Source of the DNA: Cerasicoccus maritimus
Lineage (GTDB): Bacteria > Verrucomicrobiota > Verrucomicrobiia > Opitutales > Cerasicoccaceae
Reading direction: 5' to 3'
NCBI GenBank assembly: GCA_031296935.1
Contig: JAVDPD010000016.1
Span: 59,704-123,703, forward strand
DNA length: 64,000 nucleotides
How positions within the stretch are numbered: position 1 is the first letter of the stretch; each line of letters begins with the position of its first letter. Under the pieces are notes generated by a model, which was not told the DNA's origin, made no database searches, and was given only the letters and a program-made list of their open reading frames with translations. Shown piece after piece: positions 2,259 through 28,460 of this stretch. The position numbers and the translations under genes were made by a program.

Positions 2259-3082
2259 TTCGCATTGAAGAGGAAGACTCCTGGCTGCTGCTGGGGCATT
2301 GCGCGCACGCAAACTTGGCGGGAGAGTTTGCCCGCCACTGGAAGAACGAATGCTTTCTGCCGCCCGATCCGTTCGTGCATATTCTCGATGCAGTGTCGCG
2401 TCACGATGACAGCTGGGGAGACGTCGATGCCAACCCTGTCCTGACGCCCGAAGGCAACCCCTCAGCTTTCTCGAGTGAGCTCGTGGGAACCTATGATGCG
2501 TTCGAGGAAATTGATCTAGACGATTACCTGCGTGTACGCGGTGAGGCGACGGAAAAAGCGGCCGCGCGTGATCCCTATGCAGGCATTCTAATTTCCATGC
2601 ACACGGTAAACCTGCTGACCGAGCAGGCGGACTTGAGCACGCTGACGCCCGACGAAGCGAAGATTCACTCTGCGTTTATCGACGGCCAACTGAAGCGTCA
2701 GCAAGAGCTGATTGTCTTACTCAAGGAAACTGGCTTTGTGGAAAGTGCGTTATCGGAAACCGCGCTACGCCGAGGCTTCGAGTTTTTGCAGGCGTGCGAT
2801 AGCCTCTCGCTGTTGGTAGGTGTGGATTTTGTCGAGCCTTCGCAGCTTCGCCATGCGCAGCCGATGCGCGATGGGGAGAAGGCGATTATTAAATTTACGC
2901 CTCAAGGCAACGGCGTGTTCGAGCTCGATCCATTTCCGCTCGATGAAGTCGGGCTGTCGTTCGAGATCCCCTATGTGCGCGTCCCCAAAACGGCGACCGT
3001 AAGTTTAGAAGCATACCAAGCGGCTTACCGAGTCGCAGAACACGTTGCGAAGAAAATAACCTTTATCGCGAAAACCAAATGA
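2255..3082 (+). CDS. DUF3891 family protein
   Basis: The 275-residue protein resembles the DUF3891 family: an N-terminal strand region, then a helical core starting with HILDAVSRHDDSWGD (a His-Asp-Asp cluster near residues 48-52 that could bind metal, as in HD-type hydrolases) and ISMHTVNLL. The C-terminal part is beta-rich and ends in a helix. No signal peptide is visible, so it is likely cytoplasmic. It overlaps the formamidase stop and its own stop overlaps the RidA start, placing it inside the metabolic operon. The biochemical function of the family is not established; a hydrolase role is only inferred from the His/Asp motif and the neighbours. Confidence 0.75.
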   Translation: MIRIEEEDSWLLLGHCAHANLAGEFARHWKNECFLPPDPFVHILDAVSRHDDSWGDVDANPVLTPEGNPSAFSSELVGTYDAFEEIDLDDYLRVRGEATEKAAARDPYAGILISMHTVNLLTEQADLSTLTPDEAKIHSAFIDGQLKRQQELIVLLKETGFVESALSETALRRGFEFLQACDSLSLLVGVDFVEPSQLRHAQPMRDGEKAIIKFTPQGNGVFELDPFPLDEVGLSFEIPYVRVPKTATVSLEAYQAAYRVAEHVAKKITFIAKTK

Positions 3083-3543
3083 GCAGCCCCGAAAGCAAAC
3101 TCGCAGCGTTGAATATCACCCTGCCGCCGCCGCCTCAGCCCGGCGGAAATTACCTACCGTTTCGACGCGAGGGGAACTTGGTTTTTCTTGCTGGCGTGAT
3201 CAGCGCTTCGGCAACGGCGGGCGAGTACCTTGGTCAAGTCGGGGACGAGCTCTCACTGGACGATGGCTATCAGGCCGCCAAACTTTGTGCCCTCAATGCG
3301 CTCGCAGTGATGAAGTCGATTACCGGTTCGTTGGATGATGTGGAAAAAATTCTTTACGTCGGCGGCTACGTAAATGCGATTCCCGCTTATGGCAAAAGCC
3401 CGTCCGTGATCAATGGTGCCTCGGACCTTTTCGTAGAGCTTTTCGGCGAGGATGGGCAGCATGCTCGCGCGGCTGTTGCTGTAGCCGGCTTGCCGAAAAA
3501 CGCCGCAGTTGAAATTCAGGTAAACCTCAAGTTGAAGGCTTAG
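3079..3543 (+). CDS. RidA/YjgF family enamine/imine deaminase
   Basis: This 154-residue protein belongs to the longer RidA subfamily, with LAALNITLPPPPQPGGNY at the N-terminus, LVFLAGVISA in the core, and the conserved helix DDGYQAAKLCALNAL. RidA proteins are trimers that hydrolyse reactive enamine/imine intermediates to keto compounds and ammonia; RutC of the Rut pyrimidine pathway is one example. The C-terminal VAGLPKNAAVEIQVNL places the usual proline-glutamate region next to the trimer active-site cleft. The start overlaps the preceding stop by four bases. The gene ends at 3543, overlapping the stop of the convergent creatininase gene. In this cluster it may process an unstable enamine formed after ring opening (inference). 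Confidence 0.92.
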   Translation: MSSPESKLAALNITLPPPPQPGGNYLPFRREGNLVFLAGVISASATAGEYLGQVGDELSLDDGYQAAKLCALNALAVMKSITGSLDDVEKILYVGGYVNAIPAYGKSPSVINGASDLFVELFGEDGQHARAAVAVAGLPKNAAVEIQVNLKLKA

Positions 3544-26755: not shown

Positions 26756-26826
26756 AACGACGAATCACGCGAATGAACACGAATCAACTCCTGAAACATT
26801 CGCGGGCATTCGCGCTATTCGTCGTT
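26756..26826. repeat. 71-bp inverted repeat containing the start and signal peptide of the next gene
   Basis: The left arm 26756-26784 and right arm 26798-26826 are 29 bases each and match in most positions when reverse complemented; both begin or end with the AACGACGAAT word. A 13-base spacer lies between them. The ATG at 26773 is inside the left arm. The word CGCGAATG and the GAAT periodicity resemble the GAAT/ATTC-rich palindromic elements seen between genes in several phyla; that resemblance is from memory, not a search. Confidence 0.8.
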
Positions 26827-27699
26827 CTGTTTTTCGCCAGTTCTTTGTCCGCCGAAACGATCCGCGTCGCGAGTTACAATCTGTATAATTACCTCGATGC
26901 GAACCGCTGGGTGGAAGGCCATTATCGCATGGCTTACCCGAAGCCCGAGGCCGAAAAAGCCGCCGCGCGCAAGGTCATTGCCGCTGTGCATCCGGACATC
27001 CTCACGCTACAGGAGATCGGCGGACCGCTCCACCTCCAAGAGCTACAAACTGACCTAAAAAAAGCGGGCGTCGACTACCCGTATGCCGAGTGCTTGATCG
27101 GCCCGGATGAGGATCGCCGCATCGCAGTCTTGTCGAAGATTCCGTTTGAAGCCGTCGGTCACACCGAACTCGATTTCAAATACTTCGACGGACGCGAGCT
27201 CATCAAGCGCGGGCTGCTGGAGCTGCGTTTCGGCAAAGGCGATACCGCGTGGACGCTGTTCGTGGTGCATTTGAAAAGCCGCTGGACCACCCGCGATGAC
27301 GACCCCGAGTCCGGCAAGCGCCGCACTGGCGAAGCCCATGCCGCGCGCAACTTTATTCGCGAGCAATACCCGCCAGAAACGAATCCGCGCTACCTCGTGG
27401 TGGGCGATTTCAACGACACGAAACGCAGTGCGCCGATCCGTCGTTTTCTCGAAGTCGGCGACACGCAGCTGACGCAACTTTTGCCCGCTGGGGACTCCCG
27501 AGGCGAAGCCTGGACTTTCCATTACCGCGCCGAGGATAAATACGAGCGCGTGGACTTCATCCTCGCCTCGCCCGCGCTGGCGCCCTTCGTCGAAGGCGGC
27601 GAAACGCACATCTACGACAGCCAACCCGAAACTAGCAACGCCAGCGACCACCGCCTGATCTACGTGGACCTGAGCAACCTCCCGCGATCCGGTGGCTAG
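26773..27699 (+). CDS. Exported endonuclease/exonuclease/phosphatase family protein
   Basis: The 308-residue protein has a signal peptide of about 27 residues (cut near SLSA-ET) and an EEP domain. Motifs are RVASYNLYNYLD at the start of the fold, LQEIGG with the metal Glu, the VHLKSRW catalytic His, the VVGDFNDT Asp/Asn pair and the C-terminal SDHRLIYVDL His. Targets could be nucleic acid, phospholipid or a phosphate ester outside the cytoplasm. The N-terminal 18 residues, including part of the signal peptide, are encoded by a palindromic element (26756-26826), which is unusual. The ATG at 26773 is kept because it yields a textbook signal peptide. Confidence 0.87.
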   Translation: MNTNQLLKHSRAFALFVVLFFASSLSAETIRVASYNLYNYLDANRWVEGHYRMAYPKPEAEKAAARKVIAAVHPDILTLQEIGGPLHLQELQTDLKKAGVDYPYAECLIGPDEDRRIAVLSKIPFEAVGHTELDFKYFDGRELIKRGLLELRFGKGDTAWTLFVVHLKSRWTTRDDDPESGKRRTGEAHAARNFIREQYPPETNPRYLVVGDFNDTKRSAPIRRFLEVGDTQLTQLLPAGDSRGEAWTFHYRAEDKYERVDFILASPALAPFVEGGETHIYDSQPETSNASDHRLIYVDLSNLPRSGG

Positions 27700-28001
27700 A
27701 GCCCTCACTGCATCTGCATGTTAAGGCCTCATGCATCCGCATCGAGCGTCCAGGCATCAGCTGGTGTCCAGTAAGGTTTTGCTCCGAATCCAGGCGTGGT
27801 TTGGAGCGACATCCGCAGCTGTGTTGGTCCTTACGTCCACGGACGTAGCGCATCTACGTCCCGGGACGTAACCTCTCTACGTCTATGGACGTATGGCGGC
27901 TACGTCCGTGGGCGTAGGGACCAACACAGGCAGTGGTCAGATGACAGCAAACGCCTGCATTCAGGGCAACAAAGGCCTAGGATCAGGGCTGCAGACGTGC
28001 G
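27700..28001. other. Structured noncoding stretch with a palindrome array
   Basis: The 302 bases have no gene I can support. They are dominated by four 16-base palindromes at a 23-base period (27832-27916), framed by a perfect 12-base inverted repeat (27819-27830 and 27918-27929) and a weaker outer pair (27779-27797 and 27951-27969, 16 of 19 positions). See the separate entry for the array. Confidence 0.7.
27819..27929. repeat. Array of four 16-base palindromes inside a 12-base inverted repeat
   Basis: Units lie at 27832-27847, 27855-27870, 27878-27893 and 27901-27916; each begins TACGTC and ends CGTA. Unit 2, TACGTCCCGGGACGTA, is a perfect palindrome. The three spacers are all seven bases long with unrelated sequence. 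Units 3 and 4 each carry one change that would become a G-U pair in plus-strand RNA. The outer arms are CTGTGTTGGTCC and its exact complement. Confidence 0.85.
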
Positions 28002-28460
28002 TCACTGCGCCTTGGCAGACTTCGGTGCCGCGAAAATGACTTGATATTCGGCCAAGTCCAAGGCGCGCTTGCGGATGCGGCGCATGAACTCAAGTTGGGA
28101 GAGTATCTCGCCTTCGCGCCCGATTTTGAATCGCAACTCTCGGTCCGCGAAGAAAAACTGACGATCAGCCTCATAGGCTAACTCCCATGCTTTTTGGGAA
28201 ATTTCGAGGCGTCGCGCATCGTCATGTTTAAGTGAGTCCAGTAGCTCTTTATAGGTTGCTTCCATCTGCGCCCACCAATCTTTGGAGGTCTCCCCGATGT
28301 TAATGGCCATCTCGGAGTTGCCTTCCAGAAAATCCAACTTTCCCTCGTATTTCTGATCGAGCGGATGAGGGTCTTGGTCACCTTAGCCTTCCATCAAATA
28401 TTGGGCATGGGCTAAAGTAGTGAGGCAAATTAAAAGGAAGACGATGAGTAGGCGAATCAT
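28002..28460 (-). pseudogene. LprI/DUF1311-like exported protein, interrupted by an in-frame stop
   Basis: An ATG at 28460 starts a good signal peptide (MIRLLIVFLLICLTTLAHAQ), but an in-frame TAA at 28385-28383 follows after 25 codons. The same frame then continues to 28002 with DPHPLDQKYEGKLDFLEGNS, then WWAQMEATYKELLDSL and QKAWELAYEADRQF. This is the pattern of the lysozyme-inhibitor LprI N-terminal (DUF1311) family: H-P-x-D, YKELL-type and Q-x-x-W helices. The intact length would be about 152 codons. Without the N-terminus the remaining frame has only weak starts such as the TTG at 28337. A nonsense mutation is the simple reading; a sequencing error or readthrough is possible. Confidence 0.65.

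Follow-up and report, generated by a model that had tools for sequence, protein, structure and literature searches.

What is the array of four palindromes that separates two genes of the marine bacterium Cerasicoccus maritimus? We analyzed it in a window of 64,000 nucleotides (the whole stretch under study, on contig C16 of the genome labeled G000). The first-pass annotation had reported 16-bp palindromes with an exact 23-bp period, and these indeed stand at 27832–27847 (TACGTCCACGGACGTA), 27855–27870 (TACGTCCCGGGACGTA, CCGG-centered and equivalent to unit 3 in the family orientation), 27878–27893 (TACGTCTATGGACGTA) and 27901–27916 (TACGTCCGTGGGCGTA). Equally confirmed are the 7-nt spacers of unlike sequence (GCGCATC, ACCTCTC and TGGCGGC) and the perfect 12-base arms at 27819–27830 and 27918–27929. 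The further outer pair proposed at 27779–27797 and 27951–27969 does pair, at 16 of its 19 positions, and is part of weaker 23-bp flanking units. Scored on its outer palindrome bases, the core of four reaches 32 of 32, with the runner-up place in the window at 18 and the top score among 50 mononucleotide shuffles of the window at 20. The reading that we favor, with our confidence evenly balanced for and against it, is that the array may be one copy of a dispersed, polar, intergenic protein-binding scaffold for a putative dimeric factor.

The four palindromes are the core of a larger element of ~223 bp and ten units, spanning 27763–27985 on the minus strand, as the window copy runs opposite to the family orientation. 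It consists of three weaker 23-bp units (27763–27831, placed by register and by consensus over 20 copies, the second with the family consensus gaAtccagGCGTgTGTTGcctca), the four palindromes (consensus over the family TACGYCCNNGGRCGTA plus 7 nt) and three further weaker units (27917–27985), which are the left-hand ones inverted. The weaker units are 8-2-8 dyads whose half-sites are unlike. Our model of this family (family 1), R1, was trained on the 20 copies found, among which six orthologous pairs are not independent; it matches the window at 27766–27983 with an E-value of 8e-43, the window copy being itself one of the training sequences. Across the 20 copies the information content is 1.3–1.5 bits per base in the palindrome units and 0.6–0.8 in the outer units, its mean falling beyond the ten-unit boundary to 0.1–0.3 outside the element. 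On one side, a gene for an Exo_endo_phos family protein (26773–27699, plus strand; open reading frame with a match to Pfam PF03372, E 1.4e-16) ends 64 bp before the element; on the other lies a convergent, LprI-like gene (28002–28337, minus strand; open reading frame with a weak match to PF07007, E 9.1e-6).

A search for further arrays recovered ten complete copies in the window's own genome, the window copy included, on ten contigs with one copy per contig. Among the other genomes, Cerasicoccus frondis NBRC 105381 (G001) has four complete copies and a second Cerasicoccus (G002) six, whereas no family-1 array was found among the scored candidates of a third (G003). The element would thus be dispensable within the genus, a point against the scaffold. 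These counts rest on 150 scored candidates per genome out of 331–573 from the first look, within which every full Cerasicoccus copy has an E-value of 3.2e-30 or better and the next matches are at 0.03 and weaker. All of these weaker Cerasicoccus matches (8 rows at 7 places) are arrays of a second family, described below, and no decayed or partial family-1 copy was seen among the scored candidates of the four Cerasicoccus genomes. Hence, the many degenerate copies with variable spacing that the first-pass annotation associated with a plain dispersed repeat were not found: the scored copies are complete and their spacing is invariant. A search of G000 for single units with at most one mismatch gave 35 forward matches, 34 of them within arrays and one lone, with 12 matches for the backward-pattern control. 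No single-site operator with this palindrome that would mark a regulon was found, which counts against a protein-binding reading.

Further afield, R1 matched five of the 273 genomes of the order (8 candidates scored per genome, with stricter filters): G000, G001, G002, G004 (from a sister genus belonging to the same family) and, weakly, G146 (E 6e-4), the last of which we dismissed as an unrelated tandem repeat by eye. A loose pattern run over the 273 genomes had matches in 30. We likewise set aside TACGTGATATTACGTA, found in four genomes of another family, as by eye it forms one site upstream of one gene and no array; this conserved single palindrome precedes a small secreted-protein-like gene (L100, L101, L103 and L104) and is likely an ordinary operator. 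A viral or plasmid origin was rejected: two patterns had no match in viral contigs, and blastn with the window element had none in plasmids and phages. Among the papers listed in our literature search, none describes a four-palindrome element of this kind.

The geometry of the element is rigid. All 20 Cerasicoccus copies have exactly four palindromes placed exactly 23 bp apart, counting as palindromes the four consecutive units that retain 7–8 of the 8 outer bases; the six flanking units never keep more than 4 of 8. The ends of spacer 2 are either G.....T or the reverse, A.....C, in all 20 and are never mixed (p 6e-6); hence, the family-1 element has polarity, and we assigned the family orientation from the spacer ends. 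With the copies so oriented, CCGG is the center of the third palindrome in 13 of 20, and CATG that of the fourth in 14 of 20. An orientation with respect to the replication strand was considered and left unused: oriented local GC skew is negative at 14 of 20 copies, a weak tendency among copies that are not independent.

The sister genus presents a variant of this geometry, with four arrays of four units at a 22-bp period (a 15-bp dyad plus 7), the fourth being a weak match to the model (E 0.016) that was recognized from its four units. It is as if all sites had changed their step together with one factor. The G004 units retain 3 to 7 of 7 pairs, several of the 16 being imperfect, and 2 of the 16 show the paired change TACC/GGTA. 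No outer units of the Cerasicoccus type are recognizable in these arrays, and two of the copies have 307 bp in common at 94% identity. The imperfect units, the missing outer units and the shared stretch count against the scaffold.

Comparison between species points to selection on the palindromes. Of eight orthologous pairs compared, we pooled six, leaving out two with L014 as repeats of L020/L047; both flanks are similar in three (L011/L046, L016/L048 and L045/L049) and mainly one side in the others (L012/L044, L013/L051 and L020/L047). In these six pairs, 186 of 192 outer palindrome bases are identical (97%), as against 62 of 90 inner spacer bases (Fisher p 1e-10 for this comparison) and 574 of 828 bases of the flanking units (about 69%). 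The family-1 arrays are thus old sites kept by selection, because inert relics would have decayed evenly. The palindrome halves also covary positively: the pair C5/G12 does so with p 8e-5 over 80 units and 0.008 over the 40 of G000, and the center pair is complementary in 55 of 80 palindromes as against 36% expected. Such co-change could reflect selection on symmetry, base pairing within single strands, or a templated repair process acting on imperfect palindromes. Independent half-sites explain it no better than cruciform or hairpin pairing or templated repair does; it so argues against the scaffold, as do the copy sets that differ between species in the manner of mobile repeats.

With regard to placement, the 20 copies have about 9 convergent, 8 tandem and 2 divergent settings and 1 unclear one, approximate numbers based on neighbor orientations taken by hand from the longest open reading frames; family-1 arrays tend to lie away from divergent promoter regions. 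Beside the copy on contig C40 (L020) stands a duplicate of the 3' end of the LprI-like gene, with 340 bp in common at 79.7% identity. This 3' end accompanies two element copies in G000 and one in G002 (L047), an unevenness that suggests rearrangement at the element. The duplicate in G000, together with the 307-bp stretch in G004, makes past duplication of the element with its flanks clear, with transposition as such no more than possible. Related genes at L012, L044, L045 and L049 (that at L012 being HU-HIG/DUF4469 by Pfam), from three species, each carry the element at their 3' end, which suggests joint duplication of gene and element. Separately, a gene for an HTH_3 + cupin-like regulator starts beside the element at L016:1695-2243 (minus strand) and L048:2753-3337 (plus strand), with Pfam E-values of about 6e-13. 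Its position is orthologous in the two species, and the regulator is a possible candidate for a binder of the element.

A second array family shares the 23-bp step. Family 2 is built of 8-2-8 dyads with 5-nt links and other half-sites, namely AACAACCG, AACATAGC or AGTACAGC, AAAGCCTA and GTTTCCTA. Its model, R2, was run on a wide draw of genomes without G001–G004, and these four were searched separately; a hand count gives at least 24 places in G000, at least 16 in G001 and at least 33 in G002, with no match in G003 and G004. Examples in G000 lie at C5:12468, C8:97137 and C14:30637 (most are in L145–L169), and those in G001 include L137–L142. The family-2 arrays are mosaics of half-sites and differ from one another by whole 23-bp units. 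Twelve copies in G000 are near-identical (the printed pairs are mostly 88–96% identical over at least 200 bp, with one gapped pair at 78%), so family 2 has spread recently. One family-2 array of G000 abuts a broken REP-type Y1 transposase gene (L178:2310-2486 and 2521-3098), which is split into two frames and ends near residue 193. An intact relative lies 0.8 kb from a family-2 array in G001 (L180:3279-4205), and a different, IS200-like gene is found 0.7 kb from one in G002. Alongside the intact relative, a 20-residue start fragment at L180:4794-4853 precedes another array. The common 23-bp geometry and the broken transposase abutting a family-2 member make a mobile ancestry possible for the family-1 element as well.

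The main rival to the scaffold is a miniature element maintained by a transposase: a REP/BIME or palindrome-associated repeat moved whole by a Y1 (IS200/REP-associated) transposase that needs the palindromes, an explanation that we regard as possible though somewhat improbable. All four array-bearing genomes have Y1_Tnp and the two tested without arrays have none, a concordance in 6 of 6 genomes that is, however, drawn from few genomes and includes several fragmentary matches. This rival is also favored by the twelve near-identical family-2 copies of G000, the duplicated 3' end of the LprI-like gene and the extragenic, mostly non-divergent placement. In three of the 16 Y1 regions from four genomes (about 2.5 kb on each side), a family-2 array lies no farther than 1.5 kb away, always on a single side, and none has a family-1 (TACGTCC) array. 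REP units are described as solitary, paired or clustered and as usually numbering more than 100 per genome, and RAYT genes as always lying between two inverted REPs (as presented in PMC2817692); PMC3733652 reports that Opitutus terrae is enriched in repeats of the GTAG type. Like REPs and BIMEs, the element is an extragenic palindromic mosaic of regular spacing, mostly away from divergent promoters (about 2 of 20 copies are divergent), in genomes that also have Y1 transposases. Unlike them, it has almost no lone units, its scored candidates include no partial copy, it numbers 4–10 copies per genome (10, 6 and 4) rather than hundreds, it keeps exactly four palindromes throughout, and its outer dyads have unlike half-sites. 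Nor does it show an imperfect 20–40 bp palindrome with GTAG or CGTC as the head at its foot: a G follows palindromes 1–3 in 56 of 60 cases (in the family orientation), producing a GTAG that overlaps the palindrome end rather than heading it, with no hairpin right after. The element is BIME-like in its mosaic organization and yet departs from REPs on these points. With MITEs and IS200/IS605-derived elements it has in common dispersed copies of ~200 bp, copy sets that differ between species and duplicated flanks, including the LprI-like 3' end; but its conserved part is the center and not the ends, no decayed copies were seen among the scored candidates, and no transposon-type terminal inverted repeats or target duplication were recognized. 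The family-1 element has weak, inverted outer units, and by eye neither terminal inverted repeats nor a target duplication were seen in family 2. At the single locus compared (L018), the relatives that lack the element also lack the neighboring gene, leaving no readable boundary and no clean empty site. Selection on the palindromes at orthologous places long after arrival likewise speaks against this rival.

The remaining rivals concern RNA and chromosome partitioning. A structured RNA or RNA scaffold, either as four hairpins or as one long hairpin, is in our estimate very unlikely, even though the predicted folds of the two strands are much stronger than those of shuffled sequences (z −11.0 and −9.7) and the palindrome halves covary, since a strong fold is expected of any inverted repeat. 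The first-pass annotation had taken G-U pairing in the changed units as a hint of RNA hairpins; this hint fails over 20 copies and 80 palindromes, as a selected RNA strand would give an excess of G-U over A-C, and the counts of G-T versus A-C are balanced (25 versus 25 unoriented, 26 versus 24 oriented). The outer arms covary at most weakly within a locus: comparison of complementarity within and between copies gives a p value of 0.03 over the innermost 13 bases, 0.06 over the first unit as a whole, 0.69 over the second unit and 0.07 over the third. There is also no Rfam match in the window at the gathering score and no promoter-like site of the sigma-70 type, to which the scan was limited, in 27500–28400. 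The balanced mismatches, the weak arm covariation and the lack of an Rfam match led us to reject RNA as the leading explanation. Low mutual complementarity of spacers within a locus was also rejected as a sign of selection against a long hairpin, as much of it is probably due to the polarity of the spacer ends. A bidirectional transcription terminator or 3'-end stabilizer between genes is slightly less probable still: it would draw on the stem-forming potential and on the convergent or tandem setting of about 17 of the 20 copies, but the only T-run terminator site lies outside the window element, and termination requires neither four palindromes nor a fixed 23-bp phase. Least probable of all, and indeed very unlikely, is a centromere-like or ParB-family loading site. 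The array palindrome has the frame TNNNTCNNNNGANNNA in common with parS. In F-plasmid parS, ten 16-bp inverted repeats are distributed over twelve 43-bp repeats (as given in PMC6238139), a tandem array of 16-bp palindromes that the present one resembles. However, the palindromes differ from parS, the period is 23 and not 43 bp, the arrays are dispersed over ten contigs in G000 and they have flanking inverted units. Moreover, a separate parS-like pair, TGTTCCACGTGGAACA, is present in all five genomes tested, the array-less G003 included, with its members 48–51 bp apart and two mismatches to the consensus used (48 bp apart at G000:C4:216663-216726), and all four genomes tested have an ordinary parB; on these grounds we rejected a ParB centromere. 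Extra ParB_N matches in G000, G001 and G002 are, at a guess, proteins of the plasmid or phage type.

The element fits none of the known kinds with which it was compared, and we return to the protein-binding scaffold. It draws on the invariant four-by-23-bp layout, the selection on the palindromes, the near-absence of lone units, the absence of decayed copies among those scored, the 22-bp arrays of the sister genus, the balanced mismatch types and the avoidance of divergent regions. A multi-site operator was among the readings of the first-pass annotation, and this DNA-binding reading fits best. Our comparisons establish the architecture, the copy number, the constant spacing, the selection acting on the palindromes, the polarity and the lack of RNA strand bias, while the binding protein, its cooperative assembly and its role are what we infer. 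Under the scaffold model, a dimeric host DNA-binding factor would bind each of the four palindromes, and the constant step of 23 bp, about 2.2 turns of the helix, would set the geometry of neighboring dimers for cooperative assembly. The weaker inverted units on both sides might extend or orient the complex, and the array would be needed whole, such that lone palindromes do not persist. By analogy, its most likely role would be in nucleoid or domain organization, or in insulation between neighboring, mostly non-divergent genes, as proposed for BIMEs. It is possible that this scaffold had a mobile ancestor.

More broadly, and only tentatively, Cerasicoccus and its sister genus might possess a chromosome-wide, previously undescribed system of phased dyad arrays. 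Its families would differ in their half-sites but be alike in geometry, with 8-2-8 dyads joined by 5-nt links for a step of 23 bp or, in the sister genus, a 22-bp variant whose center is shorter. Each array may dock one or a few dimeric factors into a polar nucleoprotein complex that marks or organizes the chromosome. A rigid, polar multi-site element that selection has kept at the same places in several species, and that was not found in a congener, offers a clean handle on a DNA-organizing or element-moving protein. Further, the change of period between the genera, 23 bp in one and 22 bp in the other for all units found, offers a natural experiment on what this geometry is for.
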